A DNA stretch of 64,000 nt, taken from Xanthobacter autotrophicus (GTDB lineage Bacteria; Pseudomonadota; Alphaproteobacteria; Rhizobiales; Xanthobacteraceae). The DNA lies in the NCBI RefSeq assembly GCF_005871085.1, contig NZ_VAUP01000004.1, positions 124,001-188,000 on the forward strand, in the 5' to 3' direction. Made by a program: the position numbers and the translations under genes. Shown here in pieces: positions 21,783 through 39,595 of the stretch; the stretch's first letter is position 1, and every line of letters starts with the position of its first letter. Below the pieces are notes generated by a model, which saw only the letters and a program-made list of their open reading frames with translations, was not told the origin of the DNA and did not search any database.

Positions 21783-21806
21783 ATGGTGCTGCGAGAGAGG
21801 ATTGAA
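21783..21806. other. Left attachment site: copy of the tRNA-Thr 3' end
   Basis: This 24-bp sequence is identical to 39520-39543, the 3' end (acceptor stem, CCA and T-arm side) of the tRNA-Thr gene. The flanks diverge at once on the inner side, and only a degenerate TTTGCAA stretch is shared outside. It is the crossover duplication expected from tyrosine integrase insertion into a tRNA gene. Confidence 0.92.
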
Positions 21807-21951: not shown

Positions 21952-22578
21952 CTATGTCGCCCTACCGTAGCCATGATTGGAAATCGTAATATCCGAACTT
22001 ATCGTATCTTTATCAAACAAAACGGATTGTTTCTCAAATTTACTAAGCATAAAAGTCCTGACCGTTTGGTGGAAATTGTCATCATGCAAGGTTTTGTAGG
22101 TACAACATACGATAGCTATTAAAGCGAACATTTGATTCGAATCGGAGTCAACAAGTTCAAAACTTGGACACCATGTCCTAACATATGTATCTCCCGGCAT
22201 CACCAGACGTGATGAATATGGTTCTTCATAGCAAAGAGATTTTACGAAATCTTCAATTAGAGGTATTGTGGAATTCTTGTAATCTAAAAGCTTAACATAT
22301 GTAGTAACGTCGAGGGCGGGCGTCCTTCCAATATTTGAAATTTTAACATTGAATGTCATGCTGATTGATTTTTCGTTAAAAGAAAAATCCTCAATATTAA
22401 GTACTTCATTTAATATCCACGCACGTTGATCCGATATTAATTGTTTTCTCGTAATTTCAGCTTGCTCAGAGGCGGATTTTGCCGCTCTTGATGCAGCAAG
22501 GGCGGCCCATCCGGAAAATAGAATGGATACCGTGGTTCCGAGTGTTGAGATATATGTTGCTATCTCTTCCGAGTTCAT
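21952..22578 (-). CDS. AT-rich N-terminally anchored membrane protein, unknown (moron candidate)
   Basis: A 208-residue protein with one membrane segment near residues 11-30 (TLGTTVSILFSGWAALAAS), then a helical linker (AAKSASEQAEITRKQLI) leading to DQRAWIL and a beta-rich domain (MTFNVKISNIGRTPALDV). This layout with an RAWI motif is seen in many uncharacterised accessory-island proteins. The gene is far richer in A+T than the phage genes, lies between the operon terminator and the att site, and is probably transcribed alone. This end position is typical of cargo or phage-defence genes, but no function can be assigned. Confidence 0.75.
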   Translation of the reverse strand: MNSEEIATYISTLGTTVSILFSGWAALAASRAAKSASEQAEITRKQLISDQRAWILNEVLNIEDFSFNEKSISMTFNVKISNIGRTPALDVTTYVKLLDYKNSTIPLIEDFVKSLCYEEPYSSRLVMPGDTYVRTWCPSFELVDSDSNQMFALIAIVCCTYKTLHDDNFHQTVRTFMLSKFEKQSVLFDKDTISSDITISNHGYGRAT

Positions 22579-23647: not shown

Positions 23648-24088
23648 TTAAATGCGGTAGGTGCCGCGCCACGACTCCATGTCGCGGTGCATGCTCGCGT
23701 TCTCGACCTTCGAGTCGTCCAGGGTGATGTGCCGCTGATCGGCGAGGCCCTCGCTGATCGTGCCTTCCAGATCGGCGACGATATCGTCATCCATTTCCGG
23801 CGCATCGTCGGCGGGCGGCTCTGGTTCGGAGGTGGCTGGCGCCTCTTCGGCGCAGAGGGCCGCCATCTCCGCATCGAAGACGGCAACGTCGTCATCCGTC
23901 ACGGGAGGGGGAGGGGGCACGAAAGCCGGAAGAGGGGCGGGGGCTTTCTCGGCGACCTTCACGCGCGCACGGTGCTCTTGCTGGTAGTGGCGCCAGCGCT
24001 GGCGACGTTCTTCGGGTGAGAGGCGGGAGAGTCGGCGCGCCTGACGCTCACGGTCCTTTGCGCGCCGATGCTCGATTGTTACGACCAT
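23648..24088 (-). CDS. Phage-element protein, basic N-terminus with acidic/proline-rich C-terminus
   Basis: A 146-residue protein. The start at 24088 has GAGG five bases upstream and is preferred over the longer frame to 24112. Residues about 5-45 are strongly basic and helical (RRAKDRERQARRL, RRQRWRHYQQEHRAR), as in DNA- or RNA-binding segments. A Pro-rich linker and an acidic tail follow. It lies just downstream of the TCACG repeat cluster. Family not recognised. Confidence 0.65.
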   Translation of the reverse strand: MVVTIEHRRAKDRERQARRLSRLSPEERRQRWRHYQQEHRARVKVAEKAPAPLPAFVPPPPPVTDDDVAVFDAEMAALCAEEAPATSEPEPPADDAPEMDDDIVADLEGTISEGLADQRHITLDDSKVENASMHRDMESWRGTYRI

Positions 24089-24170
24089 ATGCACCTCGGG
24101 TGCGGGGGCCACACGGTGCAGCCCCTTCGCGAGTCGCTATAGCGGCGAGGTCGTCCTTCACGCTCAGATT

Positions 24171-24267
24171 GCGTTCACGGTTTCGTGAGCGTGAGTGACG
24201 GTCATTCACGCTGTCAGTCACGCCGTGAATGACTGTCAGTCACGGTCATTCACGCTGTCATTCACGT
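24171..24267. repeat. Iteron-like cluster of TCACG/CGTGA motifs
   Basis: About 100 bp hold roughly ten copies of TCACG or its complement, mostly within the larger words GTCATTCACGCTGTC (at about 24201 and 24246) and GTCAGTCACG. Several copies face each other. The cluster fills the gap before the 146-residue gene and runs into the last codons of the next gene (24236-24463). It looks like a multi-site protein-binding region, such as a replication origin or repressor cluster. Confidence 0.7.
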
Positions 24268-24463
24268 GGGGCGAGGGGTTGCAGCGGTGCCACCACGCCC
24301 ACGCCACGTCCGGAATGATCCCCTTGGGCCAGATGTCGGCGCGTTCGCCAAGCGCAAGGATGATCTCGTCACGGTCAATCCGGCCGGTGCGGGGGTCTGG
24401 TTTGAGAAACGAGAGAAATTCGACAATATTATTGTAAGAAACGTCGTCGATGTACGCAGCCAT
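24236..24463 (-). CDS. Small phage-element protein, unknown
   Basis: A 75-residue protein; ATG at 24463 has GGAGG seven bases upstream, clearly better than the upstream extension. Core: SYNNIVEFLSFLKPDPRTG, DEIILALGERADIWP, then AWAWWHRC. Its last residues (HVNDSVNDRD) are encoded within the TCACG repeat cluster. It is unlike any family known to me. The compact helical shape and position suggest a regulator or replication accessory, but this is a guess. Confidence 0.65.
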   Translation of the reverse strand: MAAYIDDVSYNNIVEFLSFLKPDPRTGRIDRDEIILALGERADIWPKGIIPDVAWAWWHRCNPSPHVNDSVNDRD

Positions 24464-24712
24464 ATCGGCACCTCCATTGGATGCCGGAACATGACACGGA
24501 AACAAAACAAAGAACATAGAAAAGATGTAAGTCAGTTTTGACTGATCTTTACCGGATAGCCAGAAGCCGGAAGCTATATCGCTATAAAACAGGAACAGAA
24601 TAAGCAGGGAAAGCCGGTGGCGGGTGTTTTGGGGGCGGTGAGTGTTCGGGGCTTCAGATTTAGAAACGCCCGTGTACGCCCTCCGGAAGAGATTTTCATA
24701 GCCGGGGAGTGA

Positions 24713-24813
24713 GGGCGGTGAAAATCGGTAACGCTTTCCAGGAATCTATAAGACTCTTTGATTCTTAGAATCTTATATACATAGGAGAAAAGCGTTACAG
24801 ATTTTCACCGCCC
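24713..24813. repeat. Large inverted repeat (24/25 bp arms) with nested palindrome
   Basis: Arms 24713-24737 and 24789-24813 match in 24 of 25 positions. The 51-bp AT-rich centre contains the small palindrome GATTCTTAGAATC. The inner word GTGAAAATCGGTAACGCT recurs exactly as a direct copy at 24901-24918. The region has no gene. This is a strong candidate for a protein-binding or origin structure. Confidence 0.85.
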
Positions 24814-24900
24814 TTCCTTGAATACATCCGGCGTTTGATGGATATCCATTGAAAACAAAGGGAAAAATCTCCGGCATGTCCGAGGGTGCCGCCAAGGGCT

Positions 24901-24918
24901 GTGAAAATCGGTAACGCT
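24901..24918. repeat. Third copy of GTGAAAATCGGTAACGCT
   Basis: This exact 18-bp copy of the inner part of the left arm of the 24713-24813 inverted repeat lies 5 bp beyond the stop of the gene at 24923-25495. Confidence 0.85.
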
Positions 24919-24922
24919 CCGG

Positions 24923-25495
24923 TCACAGGTCCAGGTCTTCCAAAAGCTTGCTAACCTCGTCCGGCAAAACGATCTCATCTCGCCGGCTCGGAAGCGGCTT
25001 CCAGACGCCTGCGTCTTCAAGCATGTGGATTGTGTCGAGCAGGCGTTGACCTTGCCGGATGGTGAAAGCCGTCCCGGTTTTCGCGCTCAGCGCCTCGGAA
25101 AGCTGCCTATGCGTGGGTTCCTCGCCGGTGAGTGCCAAGTGGGACGTGTACAGTGCACGGCTCGTCATGATCTCCTTCGCACGCGCGCGAAGCTGTGCTT
25201 GGCGTTGTCCGGACTGTTCGAGCCACTGGCGCAGCGCCTGGGCCTCATCTCTCAGTCTATCGAGGTCAACCGGCCGTGGCGCCCAAGTCCCCTTGTGGGC
25301 GGCTCGGTAGCGAGCCACACGCTCGCGGGTCTTATCCCTCCGGCGTTCTAATGGATCTCGCTGGCGAGCTTCCTTGGCAACTCTACCAAGCTTCCGCTTG
25401 ATCTCTTTGTCACGCTGTTCTTTGTCGCGCCAGAGTGTGGAGAATTTTTCTAAATTTTCGCGCGCAGCGGCGCTATCGTTGCTATAATCTCCCAT
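24923..25495 (-). CDS. Basic DNA-binding-like phage-element protein (possible winged helix)
   Basis: A 190-residue protein. The N-terminal half is highly charged and helical (RDKEIKRKLGRVAKEARQR). The C-terminal part, HRQLSEALSAKTGTAFTIR then QGQRLLDTIHMLEDAG, has the spacing of a winged-helix domain. ATG at 25495 has AGGAGG upstream at long spacing; an N-terminal extension to 25573 is less likely. It lies at the head of the small-gene module and directly beside the inverted repeats, so it is the best candidate to bind them (inference). Confidence 0.65.
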   Translation of the reverse strand: MGDYSNDSAAARENLEKFSTLWRDKEQRDKEIKRKLGRVAKEARQRDPLERRRDKTRERVARYRAAHKGTWAPRPVDLDRLRDEAQALRQWLEQSGQRQAQLRARAKEIMTSRALYTSHLALTGEEPTHRQLSEALSAKTGTAFTIRQGQRLLDTIHMLEDAGVWKPLPSRRDEIVLPDEVSKLLEDLDL

Positions 25496-25641
25496 GTCAG
25501 ATGCGGCCTCCTGAACCGCGTTTGATTTCCTGACTGACTGACGTGCTTCCGACCGTCTGGTGTTTCTCCGCACCAGACGGTCATTTTTATCCGCAACTCC
25601 ATACTATAGCGGGCGCATCGCCCTAGCGCTTCGGCAATCAG

Positions 25642-25998
25642 CTAAACCGCAACATTGAAATCGCGCTTCAGCGTCGCCGTGATCGTGCGGAAGCCGTTGT
25701 CGATCACGTCATGCGACCATTCCTTGCAGGTCCAGCGCACTGGCGCCGCGAACATCACCGGCTTGTAAAGGAATGGCGTGTCGCCGCCCTTGGTCCGGAA
25801 AAATGCGTCGATTGCGTCGGCCTGGGCGGGCAATAGGAGGTCCCATGTCAGGCTGACGTTGTCGCGGATGTGGTTCATGCCATCACGCGTGGTCTGCGTG
25901 TAGCCGTCGCCAAACTGGGCTTCCAGGAGCTTCAGTTCTGGCTTGTTGCCAGTGCTGGGCGACGGCGGGATCGGCGGAACGAAGGTCTCGAGGGCCAT
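25642..25998 (-). CDS. Phage minor tail protein, lambda gpM-like
   Basis: A 118-residue protein: FVPPIPPSPSTGNKPELK, EAQFGDGYTQTTRDGMNH, FFRTKGGDTPFLYKPV and NGFRTITATLKRDFNV match the gpM/minor tail family, which joins the tape-measure tip complex. Its start overlaps the tape-measure stop (TGATG). It is the last recognisable structural gene; the gpL, gpK, gpI and gpJ equivalents that normally follow are absent. Confidence 0.8.
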   Translation of the reverse strand: MALETFVPPIPPSPSTGNKPELKLLEAQFGDGYTQTTRDGMNHIRDNVSLTWDLLLPAQADAIDAFFRTKGGDTPFLYKPVMFAAPVRWTCKEWSHDVIDNGFRTITATLKRDFNVAV

Positions 25999-27995
25999 CA
26001 GGCGAGTGCTCCGTTGGGGCGACGCTGCCGGCGCATTTCCTCGATGATGGTGTCACGCACCATGCGTTGCATGCCGGTTGTCACCTGCTTGGCGAGGTCC
26101 GCGTTCTGCGCGTGCGAACCGCCGTTCGCGTTCACATGCACCGTGGGCGCGAAATTGATCGAGGGCGCGGGCTGGGCAGGGGCGATGTTGATCGAGGGTG
26201 CGCGGATGTTGGCGAGCACGTCATTCGGAATCACGGTGCCAGAGCGTCCAGGCGAGAAAAGTTCCGGCCCCTTCTCACCCACGAGATAGGACTTGCCGGA
26301 CGCAACGTCGCCACCACCAGCACGGGCGCCGCCAAAACCAGAGAAGAGCGAGCCGACGATGCCTCCACCAGTGCCGCCTCCAAGGATGCCCGCAAGCGGC
26401 CCCTGTCCGAGAAGTGCGCCCTGAAGCGCGAGCTTGATCAGGTTGTCGAGCACGTCCGCGAGAACGTCATTCAGCGATTTGGCACCGGTGATCAGCCCGT
26501 GAATCGAGTCGACCATCTGATCGCCAACGGCCTGTTGTAGGTCATGAATCTGCTGCGTCTTGTGTTCCGCATCGGCGAGCTTTTGCGTCGCCTGGGCATG
26601 AGCATTGGCTTCCTTCTCGATTTCCGCCGTCAACTGCGGCGTGATCTCCAAACCCGCTTCCTTCGCAGCATTCAAAAGCTTCTGAACGTCCCGTGCGCGC
26701 TCCATCTCGTAGGTGGACTTGCCCACGACTGCCGTCTCGGCCTCGGTAAGGCGAGTGTGCTCCTGAATCGACCGAATGGCCCGCTCGTATTCGTCCAGGC
26801 TGTCCGAGCCGCCGCCCTTCGTCTTCCCGCCGATGACGGGATAATCCGCCGCCTTTATTGGCTTTGTAGGTGCTGCCGTCCGCATATTTCGATCCGGATC
26901 ACTACCGATGCCACCGGTCGTCTTTGGAGTAGGCGGGAACACGAAGTCCTCGACGGTGTCCGTGCCGAAGATCGCCTGATTGAACTTCTTTCCGAGGTTC
27001 AGGCCGTTCGCGTTTACATAATTGTAGAGGTCCGCAAGCTTTTGCAGAAGGGCGATAACCTCTTTGATCGGCTCGGAAGCCTTCTCGAAGCCCTGCGACA
27101 TACTCTCAAGCTCAGAGACAAGCCCACGGCTGAAGCCGGCCGACTTGTCCACCTCGCCGACCATTCGCATGATCGCGTTTTTCACTTTCTCAGTGGCCTG
27201 CGAAATGGTGGGTTCCGCAGTCGCGGCTTGGTCGCGAAGCTCGCCGACGCCAGCCTGAAAACCACGAAAAAACGCTGTGTTAGAAATCTTGCCCTCAGTG
27301 ACCAAAGCTTTCAGTTTGGAGACACTGCCGGCGGCTTCGTCGATCCCGCGCGCAACGGCCTGAAGGATCGGGCGCGCACCTTCGTTAATGCTGTTGAATT
27401 CTTCAGCCTGCACACGGGCGCTACCGAGAAGCTGGGAAAGCTGAAGCAATGCACCGGAAGCCTCTTCCGGACTGGTGCCAGCGACGCGCAAGGCCGTCGC
27501 TACGTCTTCCGAGAACTGAATCAATTCCTCGCGGGTGGCGCCAAGCTCTTTGGCCGACTGCGATGCGCGACCATAGAGCGTCACCAGGGCACTCAATGGC
27601 GCGCCCTGCCGCTGTGCCGCAGCGTAAAGCTGATCCAGCACGCTGGTGAGGTCCTTCCCGGACAATCCGGCCACCTTCAGGGCGTTTTGGACGCCTGTCC
27701 AGGCATCCGCGTAGCGCAGCAATTCCCGGCCGCTGAAGGCCGCCGCGACGATGCCGCCGAGCCTTCCGCCAAGGGCCGCGAAGGTGTCACCTCGGCCAAG
27801 ATCCGCAAGGCTTTTGCCGGCCTTGGAAGACGCTTCGCCCATAGATCGTTCGATGCGCCCTCTCGCGCGTTCGGCACGGCGCTCAATCTCGCTAAGGGAC
27901 TGGTCCGCGACCTGCTGCGAGCGCTTGAAGCCGCGCTGAAGCGTTGAATTATCGACGTTAAATCCAAGTTCAAGTTTTCCGTCATTTTCAGCCAT
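25998..27995 (-). CDS. Phage tail tape measure protein
   Basis: A 665-residue protein with the tape-measure pattern: a helical N-terminus (VADQSLSEIERRAERARGR), the conserved GRELLRYADAWTGVQNALK and ATALRVAGTSPEEASGALLQLSQ block, and a Gly-rich C-terminus with GGGDVASGKSYLVGEKGPE. It sets tail length and helps DNA entry. The length corresponds to a tail of about 100 nm by the usual 0.15 nm per residue rule. It lies directly after the large terminase, an unusual position. Confidence 0.92.
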   Translation of the reverse strand: MAENDGKLELGFNVDNSTLQRGFKRSQQVADQSLSEIERRAERARGRIERSMGEASSKAGKSLADLGRGDTFAALGGRLGGIVAAAFSGRELLRYADAWTGVQNALKVAGLSGKDLTSVLDQLYAAAQRQGAPLSALVTLYGRASQSAKELGATREELIQFSEDVATALRVAGTSPEEASGALLQLSQLLGSARVQAEEFNSINEGARPILQAVARGIDEAAGSVSKLKALVTEGKISNTAFFRGFQAGVGELRDQAATAEPTISQATEKVKNAIMRMVGEVDKSAGFSRGLVSELESMSQGFEKASEPIKEVIALLQKLADLYNYVNANGLNLGKKFNQAIFGTDTVEDFVFPPTPKTTGGIGSDPDRNMRTAAPTKPIKAADYPVIGGKTKGGGSDSLDEYERAIRSIQEHTRLTEAETAVVGKSTYEMERARDVQKLLNAAKEAGLEITPQLTAEIEKEANAHAQATQKLADAEHKTQQIHDLQQAVGDQMVDSIHGLITGAKSLNDVLADVLDNLIKLALQGALLGQGPLAGILGGGTGGGIVGSLFSGFGGARAGGGDVASGKSYLVGEKGPELFSPGRSGTVIPNDVLANIRAPSINIAPAQPAPSINFAPTVHVNANGGSHAQNADLAKQVTTGMQRMVRDTIIEEMRRQRRPNGALA

Positions 27996-28002
27996 GGGTG
28001 CC

Positions 28003-29616
28003 TCACAGATTCATGAATTTTGAGAAGTCGAAATCTGGATCATCAATCGCACGTCCCGGATTGTCCGAGTCGAACGCAAGTTTAACTGCCATAGCAGCTG
28101 CGACGGCGCCGTCGATCTTGTCGACGCTCTTGGTTTTGTGGAATTCGATGTTGTCATTCTTGTTCCGGACGGTGCGGATGTTCTGGAAATTCCAGCGCAG
28201 CACCGGGTGTCCGCCGTGGGTGAAGCGCTCGCCGACAATGGCGCGCTCCAGCTCGGAAATTGCGGGCACCATGGATGCAGCACCCTGCCGAAACTCGACA
28301 ACGGGCAAGCCCTTGTCTTGAAGAACCTGCATCGTCGATTGCGCGTGCCAGGGATCGATGCCGATCTGGCGCACGTCGAAGCGGTCGCAGATATCGAAAA
28401 TCGCCGCCTGAACGGCTCGATAGTCCACCACATTGCCGGGCGTGGTGGTGATCAAACCCGCATCCACCCATCGCCGATATGCGTCGGTGTGCTCGTCACC
28501 CTTCACCTTCCTGCCATCCACACGGTCGGCCGGCATGAAAAACCACGGGTGCACGATGTATCCGTCTTCGTGCTCAGGATCGCGCCAGCATGCCACCACG
28601 GCGGTAAGGTCGAGGTTGCTGGAGAGGTCCACCGCGAGCCAGCACGGGCGCTCGCGAAGGGCCTCAAGGTCCACCGCGTCGGCGCCCTTGTCGTAAATAT
28701 CCATGGTCACGAACGGCGCGTCGGAATGCTCCTGCCAGAGGTTCAGGTGGAATTGCTGGAACGCATGACGCTCGCTCAGGAGGTGTTCACCCTCGCGTGC
28801 ATGGTCGCGAAGGGCCGAAATGTCGGGGTATCCGTGGGTAAGGCCGGGATTCACGGCATGCCAAAGCGCCTCGTCGCGCCAGTCGTCACCCTCTTCGGCG
28901 GCGAAGATCACGGGGAGAAAATGCGGGTCGTCGATCTCCCCAAGCTGCACGCGCTTGGCGTAGCTCCATCGCTCAAAACACACATTCTCAGAGCCGGCGC
29001 CGGCCGTGGTGGCGATGACGCGCAAGCTGCCGGGAACCTTGCCGGTGCCGGTGCGCACGGCCTGCCAGAGGTGCGGATTTTTATGCGCATGTAGCTCGTC
29101 CACGATTGCGAGGGCGAGGGTGCTGCCATGGGCGCCGCCTGCATCGGCAGAGATTGCCTCATATCGGGCGCGCGAGCCGATAAACCGGATCATGTTTTTA
29201 TGATCGATGACGTTCAGCTTACCGCGCCATTTGCGGTCGGCCTCGACGATCATGGCGGCTTCTTCGAAGCACTCGCGGGCCTGCTTCCGCGTCGAGGCGG
29301 CAGAAACAAGGTGCGAAGCTGGTATCATCTCGGGGCCACAGAGATGCAGAAGCGTGATTGCCGCCGACAGGCTGGTTTTGCGGTTGCCGCGCGGCAGTCC
29401 GAGGAAAACCTCTCGCACCAGGCGCCGGCCGTGCGCGTCGCAAGGTCCATAGATTTTGCGAATGATCCGCTCTTGCCACGGATCGAGCACGAAGGGGCTC
29501 CCCGGTGCGGGGTTCTTCGGATGCTTCCTGCGCCGCAGCCACTCCACCGCGCGCTCGCCATAGCCGAACGGGTCCGGGATGGGCGAGCCGTCATCAATCC
29601 AAATAGGGCGAAGCAT
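28003..29616 (-). CDS. Phage terminase large subunit (HK97/Terminase_1 type)
   Basis: A 537-residue packaging motor. The ATPase has a Walker A-like GLPRGNRKTS and Walker B LAIVDELHAHK. The nuclease part has LAVDLSSNLDLTAVV and a late DKIDGAVAAAMAVKLA, which carry the acidic metal-binding residues. ATG at 29616 is chosen over a TTG at 29637. It overlaps the small subunit gene by about 20 bp. It would cut and pump DNA into proheads. Confidence 0.93.
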   Translation of the reverse strand: MLRPIWIDDGSPIPDPFGYGERAVEWLRRRKHPKNPAPGSPFVLDPWQERIIRKIYGPCDAHGRRLVREVFLGLPRGNRKTSLSAAITLLHLCGPEMIPASHLVSAASTRKQARECFEEAAMIVEADRKWRGKLNVIDHKNMIRFIGSRARYEAISADAGGAHGSTLALAIVDELHAHKNPHLWQAVRTGTGKVPGSLRVIATTAGAGSENVCFERWSYAKRVQLGEIDDPHFLPVIFAAEEGDDWRDEALWHAVNPGLTHGYPDISALRDHAREGEHLLSERHAFQQFHLNLWQEHSDAPFVTMDIYDKGADAVDLEALRERPCWLAVDLSSNLDLTAVVACWRDPEHEDGYIVHPWFFMPADRVDGRKVKGDEHTDAYRRWVDAGLITTTPGNVVDYRAVQAAIFDICDRFDVRQIGIDPWHAQSTMQVLQDKGLPVVEFRQGAASMVPAISELERAIVGERFTHGGHPVLRWNFQNIRTVRNKNDNIEFHKTKSVDKIDGAVAAAMAVKLAFDSDNPGRAIDDPDFDFSKFMNL

Positions 29617-29965
29617 CGTCTTCTTCGTTGCCGGCAAGTACCGGCCGGCTGCGGCTCACGGGCGTAAGGCCAAGCTCCGCAGCGATCTGGCGCGCGGTCG
29701 CCAATGCCTTGTCCTGGGCACGGCACAAGGCGAGGTCGAAGCTGATCTGCAACATGCCCTCGATCTCACGGGCACGACCTTGCGCGATGCAATAATTTTC
29801 AAGTTGCCCAAGGTCGCTTTGGGTGAGAATGCGGCGCTCGATCAGCGGGCGAATGCAGCGCTTCCATTCCTTCTTGGCCTCCGGGGAAAGCCAAGCGGGC
29901 GGGGCAGGGGCTTTCACCAGGGCGCCGGCCGTGCTGTTGATCGTGCTCGGTTTCCGTCCCTTCAC
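29594..29965 (-). CDS. Phage terminase small subunit, P27 family
   Basis: A 123-residue protein beginning KGRKPSTINSTAG, then PPAWLSPEAKKEWKRC and DLGQLENYCIAQGRAREIE, characteristic of P27-type small terminases. The GTG at 29965 overlaps the stop of the head-tail adaptor gene (GTGA) and is supported by family starts. It recognises phage DNA for packaging together with TerL. Confidence 0.85.
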   Translation of the reverse strand: MKGRKPSTINSTAGALVKAPAPPAWLSPEAKKEWKRCIRPLIERRILTQSDLGQLENYCIAQGRAREIEGMLQISFDLALCRAQDKALATARQIAAELGLTPVSRSRPVLAGNEEDDASPYLD

Positions 29966-30294
29966 GGGCCTACCCTCCGCACATCCACCTGAAGGGCCTG
30001 CTTTCGACCGAGCGCCTTCAGGCCGACAATATCGAAAGCCTCGCCGCCCCAAATGACTCGATCCGTCATCGTCAATGCGGACGTGTGGCGGATGCTGAAG
30101 GACGCGCGGATGGTGATCCGGCTTCCCGTGTCGGCAGGCTCTTCCTCTTGCGTGTGCTCGATCAGTTCGGCGCGCACGTCAAAAATGGGCGTCCAGAGCG
30201 TGACGGTGTTGCCGAAATCGCCCACGGCAGTAGCGGCGCGCTCGACCGTCAGTTTTTCCAGAAGGGAGCCGGCGCGAACGGGTGCGTTCTTCAC
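29962..30294 (-). CDS. Phage head-tail adaptor (SPP1 gp16-like head closure)
   Basis: A 110-residue, beta-rich protein: RAGSLLEKLTVERAATAV, VTLWTPIFDVRAELIEHT, ITIRASFSIRHTSALTMTDR and EAFDIVGLK match the head-tail adaptor family, which closes the portal ring. It begins with GTG overlapping the previous stop (GTGA) and ends in the GTGA overlap with TerS, so the genes are translationally coupled. Confidence 0.8.
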   Translation of the reverse strand: MKNAPVRAGSLLEKLTVERAATAVGDFGNTVTLWTPIFDVRAELIEHTQEEEPADTGSRITIRASFSIRHTSALTMTDRVIWGGEAFDIVGLKALGRKQALQVDVRRVGP

Positions 30295-30719
30295 TGCGCA
30301 ACCTCCTGCATGATCGCATCAAGGGACACGACGCCATGCGCGAGGTCCGCCTCGGTCGTGTCTCGGTCGGTCGTGACGCTCGCGGAAAGCCCGTGCACAA
30401 TCCAGCCGTCGCCCTGCCACGGCGCCCACGCGACGCCTGACAACGTCTTCGTGATGACATGGGTGATGCGGCGACACAGCACGGCGCTGCCCTCGCCGCG
30501 CGTCCACACGTCGAGGTCGAGGTAGGCGCGATGGTGCCACGTCTCATAGAGGTCCGGCGGCACCGCATCGCCGTTGCCGATGGCGACAAGGGGGCCGGCG
30601 CCGGTCTCGGTAAACGAGTCCAGCACCCGTTCGGCTGGGCAAAGGGCCAGGAATTCGGGGCTAGAAATGAGCCGCTGGCGCACCATTTTCGTAAGGCAAA
30701 GCACAGGATCAAGGGTCAT
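30291..30719 (-). CDS. DUF3168 tail-completion protein
   Basis: A 142-residue protein with the DUF3168 pattern: an N-terminal helix pair, then PPDLYETWHHRAYLDLDVW and a C-terminal TTDRDTTEADLAHGVVSL strand. These proteins sit at the head-tail joint (tail terminator class). It overlaps the HK97-gp10 gene before it and the adaptor gene after it by 4 bp each. Confidence 0.8.
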   Translation of the reverse strand: MTLDPVLCLTKMVRQRLISSPEFLALCPAERVLDSFTETGAGPLVAIGNGDAVPPDLYETWHHRAYLDLDVWTRGEGSAVLCRRITHVITKTLSGVAWAPWQGDGWIVHGLSASVTTDRDTTEADLAHGVVSLDAIMQEVAQ

Positions 30720-31108
30720 TTCACAGCCCTCCGCAGTGCGGCCTTATGGCGACGGCGGAACTTCGCCCTAAGTGTCCGGTAAGTATTCCACCAGAACGGG
30801 CGCGCCCTCATCTTTTTGCTTCCGTGCTCGACGATGTGCCCGTAACGGGTCTTCGCATCGCCGGCCGTGACGACATAGGTGTTCGCCGGGACAGTCTTTG
30901 CACCACCACGCGAATAGGCAGGCGTGCGCTGTCCGGGGCCGGTGACAACGATGCTTTTCCGCAGATCTCCGGAGCGCCTGGGCACCTTTCGGCGCGCCTC
31001 ACGGGCGAATTCCTTCGCGTTCGCCTCCTGCGACTTCAGTGCGCCTTCAAGAATGACGGGCTCTTTGGCTACAAGAAACGCGCGGAACTGATCACTCATG
31101 TTCGCCAT
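30716..31108 (-). CDS. HK97 gp10-family head-tail joining protein
   Basis: A 130-residue protein. ATG at 31108 directly follows the previous stop (TGAAATG). SKKMRARPFWWNTYRTL near the C-terminus and ARRKVPRRSGDLRKSIVV in the centre are the HK97-gp10 family signature. Positively charged overall. It links the head completion ring to the tail. The longer upstream frame overlaps the connector gene and is not used. Confidence 0.85.
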   Translation of the reverse strand: MANMSDQFRAFLVAKEPVILEGALKSQEANAKEFAREARRKVPRRSGDLRKSIVVTGPGQRTPAYSRGGAKTVPANTYVVTAGDAKTRYGHIVEHGSKKMRARPFWWNTYRTLRAKFRRRHKAALRRAVK

Positions 31109-31109
31109 T

Positions 31110-31400
31110 TCAGTAGGTCCAGCCGTCGCGGTAGGTCGAGATAAGATCCTCGACACCAAGCGGCAGCATGAACACCTGTCCGCCGAAAATCGTGGCTTCA
31201 CGGTGCTGGTATAGGTGCGCGGCGTACATGAGAATTGCTTCCTCGATAGGGGCCGGAACACTGCCATCAAACTTGTCGAAACCGCCGACCTTCTGCTTGA
31301 TCATGTCGGTTGCGACGGCCAGTTTCCGAGTCAAAATGGCGTCGTCTTCATCGCCAAGGTCGCGGATGTGTGCCTTAAGATCTTCCAGCGTCACGGCCAT
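31110..31400 (-). CDS. Phage head-tail connector (gp6-like)
   Basis: A 96-residue helical protein: TLEDLKAHIRDLGDEDDA, AVATDMIKQKVGGFD, AILMYAAHLYQHREAT, then PLGVEDLISTYRDGW, the common pattern of gp6-like connector proteins. ATG at 31400 has GGAG upstream at good spacing. First gene of a tightly coupled block of six. Confidence 0.85.
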   Translation of the reverse strand: MAVTLEDLKAHIRDLGDEDDAILTRKLAVATDMIKQKVGGFDKFDGSVPAPIEEAILMYAAHLYQHREATIFGGQVFMLPLGVEDLISTYRDGWTY

Positions 31401-31535
31401 TCTTAAAACTCCAATTCCACAGAGACTCGCGCAAGCCTGCCCGCGCCGGTCCCTAGTCAATCGTGAGAAGTTTTTCACTACCCCCGGGGTTACACTATTG
31501 TACAGTAAGTCAGTATTGACTGACATACTTCATCA

Positions 31536-32570
31536 TCATTCATCTTCACTGGGGATCACGTCTGATTCGTCGAGCGTGATGGTGTCGAGGTCCATAAGGG
31601 CACGACTGATCGTTCGTGAACGGATACGTTCGCCGGGATCAGAGAAGAGACCGTCAACGTCTTCGGTGTGGTGCATGTCCATCGGCTGGGCACGCTTGCG
31701 TATCGGCTTCTGATCAATGTCGGAGCTTTGGTTCGCCTTGCGCCAGTCGAGGAACGATTGTGCTTTGCCCTTCACTGCATCGGTGTTCTTCGCGAACCAC
31801 TCGCGTGCAAGCTCGACGTGCTTCTCTTTGCAGTGGGCGCGTCGAGGATCGGCCTCGATCTGGGCAATGCACTGATCAAGAGTTGCCGGCATGACGATCA
31901 TGCGGGCGTTCAGCTTACGGCACCATGTGGCGCGTGCGGCGGGATCTGGATCAGCTGTGATGAACCATGCACGCTTGTAGCTGTTGCGCTCACCAAGCAT
32001 GCGCAGGGCTTTGTTCCGGATCTCCAATGCTTCACGGGCGAAGCTGCCGGGTGCCTCATAAAGGGCCGTGCCTGCAAGCTTCGCCATGATCGTCGGCATA
32101 TCAACGACGATATCGTCAGGGCCGGCGCGGTTGGCCACATAGGTGCTTTTGCCACTACCTGGGGCACCGGCAACGATTGTTACGGGGCAGTTGGGCGGGC
32201 GATCAATGAAGGGATGGCTCAGCGGGTTGCTGCCGCTGCGGTGCTCTTCGCTTTGCTTGCGGCTGGAATGGCAGCGGACGCAGAGCGGTTGCCAGTTCTC
32301 ACGCTGCCAGAACAGGTTGCTGTCACCACGATGGGGTCGGATATGGTCCACCACCACGGCCTTGGCGCCGCAGGCGCACATGGGGTGCTTAGCGAGAAAG
32401 CCGGCGCGTGCTCGATCCCATTTCGTGGAATATCCGCGCTGGCGAGCATTTGGGCGGTTTTGATCAGCCTTGGCTTTGCGTGCACGATCTCGCGTAATCT
32501 GGCATTCGCATTTCATCCCATAGGGAACGATCTTGCCACATGAACAACGCCTTGGTGCCGCGAACGCCAT
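31536..32570 (-). CDS. HNH endonuclease fused to a P-loop (polynucleotide-kinase-like) domain
   Basis: A 344-residue fusion. Residues 1-110 form an HNH nuclease: Cys-rich start (CSCGKIV, CEC), then Cys65/Cys67, VVVDHIRPH (Asp75-His76, His80), Asn92, Cys97/Cys100 and His101. Residues 128 to about 260 form a P-loop domain with GAPGSGKST (135-143), VVDMPTI and AWFITADPDPAARATW, as in AAA_33/polynucleotide kinases. The acidic C-terminal tail is unassigned. HNH proteins are usually stand-alone packaging partners of terminase, so joining to a kinase is unusual. The start at 32570 has GGGA upstream and overlaps no other gene. Confidence 0.85.
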   Translation of the reverse strand: MAFAAPRRCSCGKIVPYGMKCECQITRDRARKAKADQNRPNARQRGYSTKWDRARAGFLAKHPMCACGAKAVVVDHIRPHRGDSNLFWQRENWQPLCVRCHSSRKQSEEHRSGSNPLSHPFIDRPPNCPVTIVAGAPGSGKSTYVANRAGPDDIVVDMPTIMAKLAGTALYEAPGSFAREALEIRNKALRMLGERNSYKRAWFITADPDPAARATWCRKLNARMIVMPATLDQCIAQIEADPRRAHCKEKHVELAREWFAKNTDAVKGKAQSFLDWRKANQSSDIDQKPIRKRAQPMDMHHTEDVDGLFSDPGERIRSRTISRALMDLDTITLDESDVIPSEDE

Positions 32571-32702
32571 AGTATTCCCGTTGAAATGAAAAGATGTGGC
32601 CTTGTCACCTTGACCCTTGTTTACCGGCCTCTCCAGAACGGCGGGGGCAGGGAGGTGACTTTTCGCTATTCGACTGGCCACGTCGCCGTCATGATCCGCC
32701 CC

Positions 32703-33299
32703 CTAAGCTAAAGTCTTCAGCGCCTGAAGGCCGACGCGGTCAAATGTGACGTCCATGGCTTGTTCTCGGGCCTGTTCGGCGCGCGCTTCTTCGCGCTCTT
32801 CATCCGTCGGCTTGTAGTCGGGCTGGGTGCGACGCCAAACGTGCATGGCGTGGGCAATCTCGCGCGGCGTGGCGTTCCAGGCCGATTCAGGTGCCCAATG
32901 CAGGATGCCAGTCGCAAAGCTGAAGAATTTACCAAGTTCCCGGTTGAAAGTCATGGAAGGGCCGGACGCCTTGGACGTGTTCGGCTTCTCATTCGGATCA
33001 ATGCCAGCGAGGTGCAGCGTGAAGGCGTAGAGGTCGAGCGCGACGTGTTCCAAACGCTTGCGGAGCGGCTGCGGGCTGTAAGCGAGCCATGCCAGGGCGT
33101 CCCGGCGCTCGTCGTCATCCTCGATCCCGTGGGCGAAAAGGTCGCCGATCAGCGACACGTTGTTTTTCAGGATCTTGTTGCAGAAATCCACGGGTTCGCC
33201 GTGGGCCTCGGAAATCTTCAGGGCGCATCGAAGCGTCGGCCGAAGCCGGACGGTGGAGCCGTCCAGCTTCAGAGTCGTGGTTTCGTCTAGAAGGCGCAT
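32703..33299 (-). CDS. Tail assembly chaperone, two-part (gpG/GT-like)
   Basis: A 198-residue protein. The N-terminal part (KLDGSTVRLRPTLRCALKI, AHGIEDDDERRDALAWL) resembles the GTA-gp10 type of tail chaperone. The C-terminal part (ILHWAPESAWNATPREI) resembles the small TAC_6 chaperone. Many phages make the two as a frameshifted pair; here they form one continuous frame. It overlaps the previous gene in a TAATG. A similar gp10-like gene exists at 35846-36178. Confidence 0.65.
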   Translation of the reverse strand: MRLLDETTTLKLDGSTVRLRPTLRCALKISEAHGEPVDFCNKILKNNVSLIGDLFAHGIEDDDERRDALAWLAYSPQPLRKRLEHVALDLYAFTLHLAGIDPNEKPNTSKASGPSMTFNRELGKFFSFATGILHWAPESAWNATPREIAHAMHVWRRTQPDYKPTDEEREEARAEQAREQAMDVTFDRVGLQALKTLA

Positions 33300-33685
33300 T
33301 AGGCAACCGGCCGGGCGACTGCATCGCCCTTCACCAGCACGGCGCCGGCTGCAATGCTGGTGCCGCTGTTCTTGGTGATGACGGCGCGCAGGTAGCGCTT
33401 GAAGCCGCGATAGCCCACCTTCACCACGCTGTCGGCCGCGAGGCTGGCCGGATAGGCGCCGTGAAGGTCGGCAGCGGCCACGTCCGCGAAGTCGCCGGCA
33501 ACGTCGGTGTCGCTCTCCTGAAGCTTCACGGTGAAGGCGCCAGCGCCGACGATGGCGCCGGTGTTCACCACCAGCACGGCGCTGTTGAAGCCGCGAAGGT
33601 CGAGGGCCGCGCCGGTCACGGTCGCGGCGAGCACGGCGGGCGAAATCGCCAGCACCGTGCCGATGTTGTTCGCAAGGTCACGCAT
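33299..33685 (-). CDS. Phage virion protein of unknown role after the capsid gene
   Basis: A 128-residue beta-rich protein (VTGAALDLRGFNSAVLVV, FTVKLQESDTDVAGDF, GYRGFKRYLRAVIT). Small proteins of this type usually follow the capsid gene in siphophages and may decorate the head or serve as a minor structural protein. It starts 14 bp after the capsid stop and shares a TAATG with the next gene. It is the only candidate here for a small tail tube protein, but the match is weak. Confidence 0.65.
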   Translation of the reverse strand: MRDLANNIGTVLAISPAVLAATVTGAALDLRGFNSAVLVVNTGAIVGAGAFTVKLQESDTDVAGDFADVAAADLHGAYPASLAADSVVKVGYRGFKRYLRAVITKNSGTSIAAGAVLVKGDAVARPVA

Positions 33686-33698
33686 GTTCTGAATCTCC

Positions 33699-35285
33699 TC
33701 AAATGTTCGGCTTGATGCGCAGCTTCTTGATGGCGGCAGGCTGGATCACGCCAGCGCCGACGCGGACGGTTGCGTGAATGCGCGTCTCGCCGAATTCGGC
33801 CCGGACGTAGGGATTCACGAGCGTCGAAAGCGAGCCGCGATCAATGATCCGATAGGCCGTCGCGATGTCGCCGAAGAGAATCGGGAAAGCGTCGGCTTCC
33901 GGGTCCTGCATGTCGGGGACTTCCACCACACGCTGACCAAGGATGGTTTCCGGCTGGCCTTCCTGAAAGGACGGTTGCCATAGCGACAGGCCGTCCGCCG
34001 TCTGCCAGCTTCGGATTGTCGCCAGCGTGGTGCTGTTCATCAGCCAGATGCCACGCTGGCGATATGCGTCCGGAAGAGCGTATTTCAGCGCGACGAAATC
34101 ATTCGGATCGAGAGCGTTCAGCCGTACGGAATCGAGCGCGGTCACGTTCGGGTCGGAGAGCAGCCCCATGGGCTGAAGCACGCCGTCACCGTTGAGGAAC
34201 GCGGCGCCTTCCTTCTTGCCGAAGTCCTCGGAGAGAGCGAGATTGACTTCGGCGAGCGCGGCGCCGGCCGAATCCGCGAGAAGCTGGTTGCTGATATCGA
34301 CGTGCGTGGTCAACTCGCGCACGGGGATTTCAAGCTGGCCGAAGCTGGGCTCGGAACCCTCGGAAGCCTGAAGCTCGCCCTTCCACTTGGCGTTGGTGAT
34401 GCCGGTTCGCTTCGGATAGATGACGCTCGGCGAACTGGTGGGTCGCACGCTGGCGTACGCACGGATCGGCGAGAATTCCACGAGGTTGCGGACGAACTCG
34501 GCGGACACCTCGGCGGGGGCGAAATAGCCGCCCATGGTGTCGGTCGAAACCTGAAGGGTCTTCAGTTCGTCGGCCGGCGCCGCATTGCCGAAGCGCAGAT
34601 AGGTCGCGAACGCCTTCTGTTCGGCGGCCTTGGTCTCGTCGGCGCCCTTACTGGTGATGATGCCAGGGCGGCTCAGGCGGTTCTGAATCTGTGCATTGGT
34701 GGCCGCGATCTTGGCGAGGTCCGCCTTGATGCCGGAAAGCTCGGTATCGTAACCGACCATCTTGGTTTCCAGGGCGGACAGGTCCGCCGTGTTGGTATCG
34801 TCGTGTTCCGTGTTCAGGTCGTCCACTTCAGTTCCCTTTGCAGATTTCGTTTCGAGGATGCGAGCGCTCCCGTGCGACGGCACGGGGACAACCGAGATTT
34901 CAACGAGGTGAATCTTGGAGAAGACGCGGCCACCTTCAGGTCGGGCCTTCATTTCGTGCGGGGCAGGGCGGTTGAAACCCATGCTCAAGCCGGTGAGCTT
35001 GCCGGCCTTCACGGCGGCATGAACGCGCCTGGCAATCGAGTTGCTGGCAATATCCAGCACGCCTTTCACGATCAGTCCGAGGTCGGTTTCCTCGGCTGAA
35101 ACCCAAGTGCCGATGCGCTGCGCTGTGTCGTGCTGGTAGAGAATCGGAAGGCCGGTGAAGTCGCCGATAGCGCCCTTCTCGATCACGTCGCCTGCGCCAT
35201 CGGGAAGGCCAAACACCCACGCGATGCCGGAGATTTCGCCCGTGGGCTGCGCCGAAAACGCGGCTTTGGTTTCAAGCCGGTTCAA
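33699..35285 (-). CDS. Fused HK97 prohead protease and major capsid protein
   Basis: A 528-residue protein. Residues 1 to about 150 form a U35-type prohead protease: ISGIAWVFGLPDGAGDVIEKG, LPILYQHDTAQRIGTW (His), GKLTGLSMGF (Ser) and VEISVVPVPSHGSARI. A linker with a coiled coil (SALETKMVGYDTELSGIKA) acts as a delta/scaffold region. The HK97-fold capsid follows (STDTMGGYFAPAEVSAEFV, FLNGDGVLQPMGLLS). The start is a TTG overlapping the previous stop (TTGA); another TTG lies four codons upstream. Fusion lets protease and shell be made in equal amounts, which normally requires later self-release. Confidence 0.9.
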   Translation of the reverse strand: MNRLETKAAFSAQPTGEISGIAWVFGLPDGAGDVIEKGAIGDFTGLPILYQHDTAQRIGTWVSAEETDLGLIVKGVLDIASNSIARRVHAAVKAGKLTGLSMGFNRPAPHEMKARPEGGRVFSKIHLVEISVVPVPSHGSARILETKSAKGTEVDDLNTEHDDTNTADLSALETKMVGYDTELSGIKADLAKIAATNAQIQNRLSRPGIITSKGADETKAAEQKAFATYLRFGNAAPADELKTLQVSTDTMGGYFAPAEVSAEFVRNLVEFSPIRAYASVRPTSSPSVIYPKRTGITNAKWKGELQASEGSEPSFGQLEIPVRELTTHVDISNQLLADSAGAALAEVNLALSEDFGKKEGAAFLNGDGVLQPMGLLSDPNVTALDSVRLNALDPNDFVALKYALPDAYRQRGIWLMNSTTLATIRSWQTADGLSLWQPSFQEGQPETILGQRVVEVPDMQDPEADAFPILFGDIATAYRIIDRGSLSTLVNPYVRAEFGETRIHATVRVGAGVIQPAAIKKLRIKPNI

Positions 35286-35596
35286 GCTGCCGCCCAACGA
35301 ACCTTGTCGCCCTTGTTCGCAGGAATGATGCGCTCAGCGCCGGCATAGCACCGATACGTCGGGGTTCCCGCCGCTGCTGGATTGGGGCCGACATAGACCT
35401 TGGCATCCACAGCCGCCTGAATCAGAAATGCGGACTGCGAACGAAGGCGATCGTTGAAGTCAGGCAGGGTCGCGACGTTGACGGTCGTGGCCGGGGCCGG
35501 AAGATCTTCCGACCAAACCGCGTCACAGAAAATATCGGTGTTGCCGCCAACTCGTGCGATGCGGCCGTGAAGCACGGCAATACCTGAAAAAGCCAT
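35282..35596 (-). CDS. Phage-element protein of unknown function upstream of capsid
   Basis: A 104-residue protein (MAFSGIAVLHGRIARVGGN, FNDRLRSQSAFLIQAAVDAK, CYAGAERIIPANKGDKVR). It looks like a compact beta-sandwich, possibly a decoration or fibre-like minor protein. It shares TTGA with the capsid gene, so the two are coupled. No family is recognised. Confidence 0.65.
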   Translation of the reverse strand: MAFSGIAVLHGRIARVGGNTDIFCDAVWSEDLPAPATTVNVATLPDFNDRLRSQSAFLIQAAVDAKVYVGPNPAAAGTPTYRCYAGAERIIPANKGDKVRWAAA

Positions 35597-35601
35597 TCAC
35601 A

Positions 35602-35853
35602 TTACTCCTTAGAATTGGTGTTCGTGGGTGCGTCGCCCCCAAGGTCGAGGCTCTGAAGCATTTCGACGATAAGGTCGCGCTTCGCCGCAGCATCGAGCGC
35701 GAAGACAAGTACGCCGGGAATGGCGTCTTCCTCTTCGGCCTGTGCGATCAGCCCTTCTGCGATGTTGTGGACATGCTTGAACATCGGGCTTTTAAACAGA
35801 CGTTCAATCCCGGCATCGTCCACTGTGAAGGCGATTTCCAGAGGGTCACTCAT
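35602..35853 (-). CDS. Small phage-element protein of unknown function
   Basis: An 83-residue acidic helical protein (IAFTVDDAGIERLFKSP, MFKHVHNIAEGLIAQAEEE, DLIVEMLQSLDLGGD). ATG at 35853 has GGAAGGTGAAACCC upstream and overlaps the 3' end of the previous gene by 8 bp. It lies between the gp10-like chaperone and the 104-residue gene. No family recognised. Confidence 0.65.
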   Translation of the reverse strand: MSDPLEIAFTVDDAGIERLFKSPMFKHVHNIAEGLIAQAEEEDAIPGVLVFALDAAAKRDLIVEMLQSLDLGGDAPTNTNSKE

Positions 35854-36178
35854 GGGTTTCACCTTCCGGCTCCGGGGCGCCGTCCCAAGCGGCAGCCAAG
35901 ATCTCGACTGCGAGGGCGTGCACGGGCTTGAGCGGCGAGCCGTCCACGTAGACGGCAATGAGGTTTGCGGCTTGTTCGTGCGACGTACCCGCGCCGATCA
36001 AGCCATGGCGCACGGTCTCGACCAACTCGACGTGATGAAATCGGCCGCTGACGACGCGCTGCGAAAGCTCGCCGATGCCGACATTCAAGAGCTTTTCCAG
36101 CTTCACGATCTGCGTACTGGACAAGTTGAACTCATACTGGCCGTCGCCGAGAAAGCGTTTAATCTTGGTGGAAGTCAC
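35846..36178 (-). CDS. GTA-gp10/TAC_11-type tail assembly chaperone
   Basis: A 110-residue protein matching GTA gp10-like chaperones: FLGDGQYEFNLSSTQIVKLEK, GIGELSQRVVSG, VRHGLIGAGTSHEQAANLI and VYVDGSPLKP. These bind tape-measure or tube protein during tail assembly. It starts with GTG overlapping the previous stop (GTGA). Here it lies between portal and capsid, far from the tape measure. Confidence 0.75.
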   Translation of the reverse strand: MTSTKIKRFLGDGQYEFNLSSTQIVKLEKLLNVGIGELSQRVVSGRFHHVELVETVRHGLIGAGTSHEQAANLIAVYVDGSPLKPVHALAVEILAAAWDGAPEPEGETHE

Positions 36179-36381
36179 GCACCGACTCCGAGCTTGTCCA
36201 GATCGAGCACGATCTGGCCGTCATGCTGGCGCTCAGCGTGCTTGGCGAAATCGCATTTCCGATTTGCGGGCGGCAGGGGCGCGCCAGAGGTCGCGACGCT
36301 CTTGAGCATGGTCACGGCCTGGGAGAATGGACCGTGTGCGGCGGCAAATGCCGCAGCGATTTCAGGCAGGTTTGTCAGCAT
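36175..36381 (-). CDS. Small phage-element protein after portal, unknown
   Basis: A 68-residue protein (MLTNLPEIAAAFAAAHGPF, SGAPLPPANRKCDFAKHAE, DGQIVLDLDKLGVGA). ATG at 36381 lies inside the 3' end of the portal gene (20-bp overlap) and its stop overlaps the next start. The coupling suggests a real gene, but no ribosome site is obvious and no family is recognised. Confidence 0.55.
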   Translation of the reverse strand: MLTNLPEIAAAFAAAHGPFSQAVTMLKSVATSGAPLPPANRKCDFAKHAERQHDGQIVLDLDKLGVGA

Positions 36382-37627
36382 TGTTCTGATCCGGAATGGT
36401 GGAAGACGTGGTATTTGGATTGATGAATTCGTCGCCGCCATCGTAAGGCGGAAGGTTTTCTTTGGCGCGGGCCTCATTGGGCGACAGGACGCGCGAAGAA
36501 ATGAGCTTACTGTAAGCGTCGGCACGCGCCGCGATATCCATGCGGGTGAGGTCATCCGACAGGAATTCGGCGAAGTAGGTGTCGCGCTCATCTTCACGGA
36601 AGAGCTTCATTGCCACTTCATTTTCCCATCGTGCGAGCCACGGGCGAAGGGAATACGTCAGAAACTCCGCACCCATCTCGCCGACGTTCGCCCAAGTCCC
36701 GCGCTCAAGATCGAAGAGCATGTGCGGCGGGACACGAAAGAGACGTGCGATCTCAGTGACCGCAAACCGGCGCAGTTCCAGATATTGAGCGTCGGTCGAG
36801 GTGAAGCTGAACGGTGTGAATCCGGAGCCGCCGGGCACCATGGCGATGTCGCCATTCTTGCGTCCGCCGACTGCCGCCTTCCACGCTTCCTTGAGGGCCT
36901 TAAGCTGGTCGGCCTTCAGGCTGGGATCAACTGTGACGACGCCACTTGGCGCAGCACGGTTGCGAAAAAGCGCAAGCCCGTGCTCTTCCAGGATCAGCGC
37001 CAATTCAATGGCGTGCTTGCCTTGCTGGATCGCCGAGGCGCCGATCAGACCGTCAAGCGACGGTCCCATGAGGTGAAAGATCTCATGGGGCTGATAGATC
37101 ACTTCGCGATTGTCGCCGTGGCGGACCTTGTAGAACGGCGCGTAAGTGATTTCATCGAGTTCAACGGTGACGGCGGTAGGCGGGATACGCCACAGCTCAA
37201 CGAAGTCACCGGAACGATTAATCAGCGCGAAGCCATTGCCGTAGAGCAATGCGTCGCGCGTAAGCTGTTCCTTAAAATGCTGGGCTGAATAAACGTCGGA
37301 GGAACGATAGCGCAGGACATTGAAGAGCGCGTGTTCTGTTGCTCGATCCTTGGAGCCATCTTTGCCGCGCTTGTAAGTGATCAGCGGAAGCTGTCCAACG
37401 GCCTCCGCAATCGACTGAACGGCGCACCGGACGGCGGTGCAGTTCATTGCGGTGCCTTCGTTGACCGTAACCTGAAGCGTTCCGGTGTCCGGAAGCGTGG
37501 CGCCGATCAACTGCGAGAGCCACGCGGCATCGGTGCTGGTGAGCGGAGTGGGCGCCGGAAGAGACGGCGCCGCTTTGGTTTCGGTCACCTGCTGGCGAGG
37601 AAAGGGCCAGAAATCGAAAATACCCAT
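36362..37627 (-). CDS. Phage portal protein, HK97 family
   Basis: A 421-residue protein: AMNCTAVRCAVQSIAEAVGQ, LTRDALLYGNGFALINR, WRIPPTAVTVELDEI and TEIARLFRVPPHMLFDLERG are family motifs. It forms the dodecameric DNA channel of the head. ATG at 37627 is used; the frame extends to a TTG at 37660 but neither start has a strong ribosome site. Only integrase lies upstream, so the usual terminase genes are displaced to 28-30 kb. Confidence 0.92.
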   Translation of the reverse strand: MGIFDFWPFPRQQVTETKAAPSLPAPTPLTSTDAAWLSQLIGATLPDTGTLQVTVNEGTAMNCTAVRCAVQSIAEAVGQLPLITYKRGKDGSKDRATEHALFNVLRYRSSDVYSAQHFKEQLTRDALLYGNGFALINRSGDFVELWRIPPTAVTVELDEITYAPFYKVRHGDNREVIYQPHEIFHLMGPSLDGLIGASAIQQGKHAIELALILEEHGLALFRNRAAPSGVVTVDPSLKADQLKALKEAWKAAVGGRKNGDIAMVPGGSGFTPFSFTSTDAQYLELRRFAVTEIARLFRVPPHMLFDLERGTWANVGEMGAEFLTYSLRPWLARWENEVAMKLFREDERDTYFAEFLSDDLTRMDIAARADAYSKLISSRVLSPNEARAKENLPPYDGGDEFINPNTTSSTIPDQNNADKPA

Positions 37628-37735
37628 TCGGAAAGAACGCGTCCAATTCGTATTAGCCAATAGGATAACACGAATATCGCGTGGAATAGACCGTTTCGTC
37701 GAATTAATTGAGAAAAATTCGCAGATAGCGGAGTG

Positions 37736-39430: not shown

Positions 39431-39441
39431 GTCCGCCTCGG

Positions 39442-39473
39442 TTTTGGACAAACTTTGGACGGAGCTTTGGACA
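39442..39473 (+). repeat. Right-end integrase arm-type repeats (TTTGGAC x3)
   Basis: Three copies of TTTGGAC start at 39443, 39454 and 39466, spaced 11-12 bp (one helical turn), between the integrase start and the att core. The word is shared with the left end (21868 and 21891). Probable arm sites that also control the int promoter. Confidence 0.65.
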
Positions 39474-39520
39474 GGATGTGAGGATTTGCAAGGGTTTCTA
39501 GCGTTTGCAACGCTTTGGGA

Positions 39521-39595
<75 letters not shown>

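Follow-up and report, generated by a model that had tools for sequence, protein, structure and literature searches.

What role does a large inverted repeat play when a third copy of its arm lies beside a small gene in a phage-like island? The repeats were found in a 64,000-nucleotide stretch of Xanthobacter autotrophicus DNA, analysed here as a whole and called the window, and the original prediction had offered three options for them, namely an origin of replication, plasmid-style control or a novel operator. Comparison of related islands leads us to regard it as probable that the repeats are the replication origin of an island integrated at a tRNA gene and that the adjoining gene, X, encodes its initiator. 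An origin or plasmid-style control is favoured because the place of X is held by a predicted HUH Rep in relatives, repeat arrays accompany X-type proteins, and the sequence of the repeat arms follows X; the novel operator remains as a rival.

The repeat array and its island

The arms of the inverted repeat, copies A and B, pair at 24 of 25 positions with a single mismatch at 24727 (the repeat search reports an inverted repeat of 39 nt at 82%), and the centre between them, with a GC content of 30%, contains a palindrome of its own, GATTCTTAGAATC. The 18-mer GTGAAAATCGGTAACGCT is exact at 24718 and again at 24901, in the third direct copy, and recurs at 24791 on the opposite strand with one mismatch. 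The near-perfect arms of 25 bp, the third copy and the AT-rich centre with its palindrome were all features of the original prediction, and they are confirmed.

At up to three mismatches the 18-bp core matches three times in the window, against 0.03 matches expected. When the variable base was written as N, the only matches without mismatch in the whole assembly (5,013,287 bases, 42 contigs) were the three repeat copies. Three further places in the assembly match with three mismatches each, a backward-read control gave two matches, and no place in the 5.0-Mb assembly outside the three copies matched with fewer than three. The genome search proposed with the original prediction thus found the core confined to three places at this level, and not in many genomic copies. 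Nowhere else in the window do at least 22 of 24 arm bases pair across a spacer of up to 120, thresholds chosen after the window had been seen. Of 20 further 20-kb stretches of the genome, three have one equally strong inverted repeat each, so hairpins this large are uncommon without being unique. A transposon or MITE was ruled out by the constant position of the repeats relative to X and gene Y in three islands and by the lack of further copies in the genome.

The island is 17.8 kb long and integrated at tRNA-Thr, and its ends are marked by a 24-bp direct repeat, which rules out the array as the attachment site. Its minus strand carries, in order, genes for integrase, portal, protease-capsid, HNH, connectors, TerS, TerL, tape measure and one minor tail protein, and then X, after which come the repeats, genes Y and Z and another two frames. 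The true start of the integrase is probably lower than that of its longest ORF, because the latter overlaps the tRNA. Among the island proteins searched, a set from which five small head-region frames were left out, none was recognised as the product of a replication, lysis or repressor gene. We class the island as phage-like, either satellite-like or defective-prophage-like, and IMG/VR has it as a provirus record of 16,050 bases. Directly outside the left att repeat, two short frames (21073-21773) probably represent what is left of a further integrase with the same tRNA as its target; the outer one has a DUF6538 domain, as the island integrase has.

Table 1 Features of the island and its repeat array in window coordinates.
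Feature	Position	Strand	Remarks
att repeat, left island end	21783..21806	+
Gene Z, basic protein	23648..24091	-	ORF opens at 24112
Gene Y	24236..24463	-	conserved small gene after the slot in relatives
Copy A, left arm of inverted repeat	24712..24736	+	sequence reading and repeat search
AT-rich centre	24737..24789		four GANTC sites: 24742, 24752, 24760, 24768
Copy B, right arm of inverted repeat	24790..24814	-	sequence reading and repeat search
Copy C, third direct copy	24895..24918	+	repeat search; adjoins 3' end of gene X
Gene X, proposed initiator	24923..25495	-	190 aa; 216 aa from GTG at 25573
Overlapping TGACTGAC motifs before X	25531..25542	+	separate candidate operator
Terminator-like hairpin and T tract, upstream of X	25551..25582	+	comparable hairpins seen by eye in G008 and G011
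Portal, protease-capsid, HNH, connector, TerS, TerL, tape measure and minor tail genes	25642..37660	-
Integrase, longest ORF	37808..39565	-	overlaps tRNA
att repeat, right island end	39520..39543	+	within tRNA-Thr

The predicted length of X, 190 residues, holds for a start at 25495, and the protein may instead begin at the upstream start given in Table 1. The winged-helix-like end that had been ascribed to the protein found no support, as the structure model (pLDDT 73, best in the C-terminal half) consists of helices only and lacks winged-helix strands; a helix-turn-helix-like end, at most, is plausible. X had zero matches in phage and plasmid collections and no RepA_N match in Pfam up to E 1, a search that a diverged domain could escape. 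Since no match of note to Pfam or PHROG was obtained, and no PDB fold at E ≤0.001, its suggested activity as an initiator is one that we infer from position.

Relatives of X are rare. They were found in 4 of 101 relatives (own genome counted), in 3 of 397 genomes of the order (its own and two weak ones) and in 1 of 385 genomes of the class (its own). G252 matches X at E 7.5e-4. G295 (L021) has a weak relative near an integrase, where neither a comparable array nor Y was detected; its sequence entered alignment A5, and it was left out of the tally below. The only IMG/VR record with X is this island itself, which also has the 18-mer. A single 18-mer in another IMG/VR record, L014, was set aside as a chance match, lying at the start of a gene that by eye encodes a DPPY-type methyltransferase, and L011, from a Thiobacillus MAG, was likewise set aside, its match to the X profile being weak (E 0.22).

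An exchangeable slot in related islands

In the window, X occupies a slot between the tail genes and Y, and we use the term for the place between the tape measure or minor tail gene and Y in all islands. In eight relatives (L026, L033, L034, L047 and L126-L129), the tape measure or minor tail gene is followed by a gene whose product combines an HxH motif with a Tyr downstream of it (conserved in 7 of 8 and 8 of 8 sequences of alignment A8, respectively), and Y comes next in all but L034, which has no Y hit. The structure model of the slot protein (pLDDT 66) gave a REP-associated transposase (E 0.026), AAV Rep68 and parvovirus NS1 as its best Foldseek rows, none of them at E 0.001; circovirus Rep stood lower in the same list, with unrelated PII proteins in between. 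VIA-align placed SIRV1 ORF119, which we take to be an HUH Rep, first (Z 7.8, 3.2 Å over 108 residues), followed by AAV Rep (Z 6.9, 3.7 Å over 116 residues) and nanovirus Rep (Z 6.6, 2.9 Å over 89 residues), and it also returned SAM lyase (Z 6.5) and ribosomal S6 (Z 6.1). Because structural scores this low can be chance, the prediction of an HUH (Rep-type) protein rests on motif, fold and position together. Three of the eight proteins were searched against Pfam and PHROG and had no match up to E 1; these proteins (L033:10824-11942, L026:8743-9870, L047:8105-8908 and others) are candidates for an unnamed Rep family. A broader X-type profile compared with the HUH profile gave a probability of 0.1.

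A survey with the Y profile found 13 of 397 genomes of the order and one with the HUH profile 10 of 397; five genomes had both, with the genes adjacent. An inverted repeat with at least 18/20 paired bases and a spacer of up to 120 is present in the slot of all eight islands examined that lack the HUH-like protein, versus 1 of 13 examined with it (L182, where the repeat is perfect), and host DNA has a background of 0.0375 such repeats per 2 kb. The eight islands are the window, L015, L016, L017, L130, L175, L176 and L178, four of them from one genus, and seven have an X-type protein; in L016 X is truncated and the tape measure is missing, and in L175 the tape measure was assigned by eye. For this non-random sample of loci, with thresholds fixed after the observation, the Fisher p value is 4e-5, and it becomes 7e-4 if the genus of the window is entered as a single case. 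The count leaves out three Y-profile hits whose surroundings could not be recognised as an island, namely L177 (a portal fragment and a minor-tail-like match), L179 and L180 (an inverted repeat about 1.5 kb from a weak Y hit); entering all three as array-less gives 8 of 11 versus 1 of 13 (p 0.002). HUH places numbered 19, eight from alignment A8 and 11 from the HUH-profile survey, of which 13 were in the tally and six outside it.

Arrays outside the genus differ in sequence. That of G073 comprises six copies around TGTGCTAGACA, of which one is changed and one inverted, and G064 has four around the same core in both orientations; the X-type proteins of these two are 41% identical. G228 has three copies, two direct and one inverted, together with an X-type protein. 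G388 has one perfect 20-bp pair, and no X-type protein was recognised there, the slot holding a ribbon-helix-helix-like protein only (by eye). Profile comparison of these X-type proteins with X gave a probability of 84% (E 8e-6) over the C-terminal part when five sequences were used, and 59% (E 9e-5) with four, G295 being left out. Two side observations concern these islands. A purine-rich AG/AAG tract comes after the inverted array copy in G228 and G073 (L175 ~5280-5320, L178 ~5035-5060). Ribbon-helix-helix-like proteins, which may resemble plasmid copy-control repressors, stand beside HUH or X-type genes at L033:10275-10739, L130:8270-8731, L175:4601-5074 and L176:4385-4843; the L130 protein matches that of L033 at E 1e-10, and the others were judged by eye.

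Within the genus, the window, G011 and G003 have the three-copy plan and X in common. The offset from A to B is 79 bp in the window and 81 bp in both G011 and G003, and that from B to C is 104, 105 and 104 bp, respectively. The X proteins of the three are 49-56% identical, the arms are common to all of them, and the arms have changed in concert, with AGGGCGGTGAAAATCGGTAACGCT in the window versus CTAACCGGTGAAAATGTGTAACGC in G011. In G008, where X is 31% identical, a perfect 25-bp pair of unrelated arm sequence surrounds a similar centre. Y identity to the window runs opposite (85% in G008, 28% in G011), so on these alignments the arm sequence follows X, not Y, in the four islands. G008 (L017) has in addition an outer inverted-repeat pair (8757-8774 and 8988-9005, 18 nt, 94%) that encloses the 25-bp one.

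The GANTC-rich centre and competing explanations

The array has the features of an iteron origin, in that three repeat copies lie beside a candidate-initiator gene (also in G011 and G003) with an AT-rich segment between them. The four GANTC sites of the window's centre lie in 31 bp. Centres in G011, G003 and G008 have 36-39% GC, the first two with four GANTC sites each at offsets of 10, 8 and 9 and the third with three, and in all four islands of the genus 3-4 sites fall inside a 32-bp part of the AT-rich centre. In 864 kb of DNA (the window and 800 kb of host DNA, with 795 GANTC sites), this is the only place with four sites within 100 bp. Tape-measure-related viral contigs (1.13 Mb) have no place with four sites within 45 bp, the island's own record excepted. 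Three GANTC sites in 16 bp also occur at 22134-22149, inside the frame 21952-22578 of the window.

The host carries a CcrM-type gene, as the RAMA model matches once in its genome and, among 14 control genomes, in Caulobacter alone. GANTC enrichment and a host CcrM gene, as a CcrM-controlled origin or locus would need, are both present, and the GANTC-packed centre suggests that copying may be tied to the host cell cycle. The arrays outside the genus (G073, G064, G228 and G388) are without the GANTC cluster, so methylation control, if real, is limited to this genus. No DnaA box was found between the copies in the window or G008, and one with one mismatch lies between B and C in G011 and G003. 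The CtrA-type motif, which we took to be TTAA-N7-TTAA, was absent from the four regions scanned.

These features could be combined as follows. Once the island has excised, X would bind all three iteron-like copies, the two that face each other across the AT-rich centre and the additional one, and would open the centre and recruit the replisome of the host or a helper; the GANTC sites would make firing sensitive to CcrM methylation. X and the array would form a module that replaces the HUH (rolling-circle-type) Rep gene of islands with the same gene order. A more specific proposal, which is possible though on balance doubtful, is that X represents an unnamed initiator family with inverted-iteron origins that swaps in place for HUH Reps in one alphaproteobacterial island lineage, the unwinding segment of the genus origin being built from CcrM sites and gated by once-per-cycle GANTC methylation.

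In the chief competing explanation, the same centre is a promoter influenced by CcrM or GcrA, with the copies as operators of X, which would then regulate Y and the genes following it, or an antisense transcript that crosses X as far as the terminator on the plus strand. The intergenic gap is indeed upstream of Y, the terminator-like hairpin upstream of X leaves room for such a transcript, and GANTC sites act in promoters, including the repE antisense promoter of repABC replicons, according to the available portions of two papers (PMC11514494, PMC6090056). We nevertheless consider it unlikely, since a regulator and its operator are not expected to alternate with an HUH protein in one slot. Two points weigh mildly in the same direction: the centre has no sigma-70-like promoter (host promoters may differ from this consensus), and another candidate operator, TGACTGAC or its palindrome, precedes X, Y and Z in the window, with TGACTGAC also at 24213 and 24235 before Z and GTCAGTTTTGACTGA, counted with it, at 24531 before Y. 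The TGACTGAC motif is absent from the G011 region. A second inverted repeat (24190-24245, 18/20, spacer 15) lies between Y and Z, over TGACTGAC motifs.

Another DNA-processing site, such as a packaging site (cos/pac), the oriT of a relaxase-like HUH system or a centromere, with X as an accessory protein, would also accommodate an X that may bind DNA and the island's own terminase, and in the relatives the HUH protein might serve as a relaxase instead of a Rep. Against this, the genes for terminase and HNH are at least 3 kb away, and the proteins searched included no recognisable partition ATPase or transfer protein, which makes such a site quite improbable. An RNA element in which copy B pairs with either A or C to form alternative hairpins is the least credible explanation, for although both pairings are kept in the window, G011 and G003, no Rfam family reached its threshold (the single match up to E 1, to a microRNA family, scored 22.7 bits where the cut-off is 90), and spacing constant within 1-2 bp and several direct copies in other arrays fit DNA binding better.

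Comparison with known systems

Dam sites make some gammaproteobacterial origins methylation-sensitive, and in P1 oriR, Dam (GATC) methylation heptamers lie in an AT-rich segment beside the initiator sites. Both P1 oriR and the present array thus have methylation sites in an AT-rich segment, and they differ in that the sites here are GANTC, whereas P1 combines Dam GATC with direct iterons and DnaA boxes. If GANTC methylation gates the array as in the more specific proposal above, a phage-like element would have the CcrM equivalent of a P1-type origin gated by Dam. If the array is an origin, it would also provide a compact natural one (about 210 bp and a 190-residue protein) for testing GANTC methylation in replication timing.

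Predicted HUH rolling-circle Reps occupy the same slot in the 13 collinear islands examined, and X shows no similarity to them in the profile comparison. A functional origin with X as its initiator would mean that, in phage-like islands that are otherwise collinear, a Rep gene of the rolling-circle type can give way to an origin made of a protein and its repeats, and that X adds an initiator family unrecognised by the present Pfam and PHROG searches. As for the element itself, capsid-forming satellites (cf-PICIs) are defined by their own head and packaging genes with an integrase and without tail genes. The island resembles them and defective prophages in its integrase, its own head and packaging genes and its small size, but differs from cf-PICIs in having a tape measure and a minor tail gene. 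Among the listed matches to literature searches on GANTC origins, prophage inverted repeats and capsid-forming or alphaproteobacterial satellites, which comprised titles and the starts of abstracts and mostly excluded subscription papers, no such island type or origin appeared.

Links between GANTC sites and replication are described in the available parts of several papers. Origins of repABC replicons are GANTC-rich (PMC6090056); the putative ori2 of Agrobacterium, which three GANTC sites overlap, over-initiates on CcrM overexpression (PMC11514494); GANTC clusters occur near plasmid partition sites (PMC9040568); and phage genes for GANTC methyltransferases lie near replication genes (PMC5537653). 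The role of GANTC methylation in replication timing is itself still treated as a hypothesis in the passages available from PMC6090056 and PMC11514494. The repABC replicons, including A. tumefaciens ori2, resemble the present case in a GANTC-rich origin, a CcrM-bearing host and proposed cell-cycle gating. Their origin lies inside repC and works with repA and repB, whereas the array is intergenic, flanked by inverted repeats and accompanied by an unrelated small protein, and the three sites overlapping ori2 in A. tumefaciens compare with four in 31 bp here.

The PLE satellites of Vibrio cholerae offer another parallel. According to the accessible sections of two papers, PLE has RepA and semi-palindromic iterons in a non-coding region (PMC7145576, PMC8263062), and RepA's DNA-binding domain and the origin covary, with replication by cognate pairs only (PMC8263062). 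Like PLE, the element described here is an integrated phage-related island with one initiator-like protein and three repeats that covary and are exchanged as a module. Unlike RepA, X has no RepA_N match in Pfam, and the repeats of PLE are direct semi-palindromes in a satellite of a gammaproteobacterium, whereas the function of the array in the present island is predicted.
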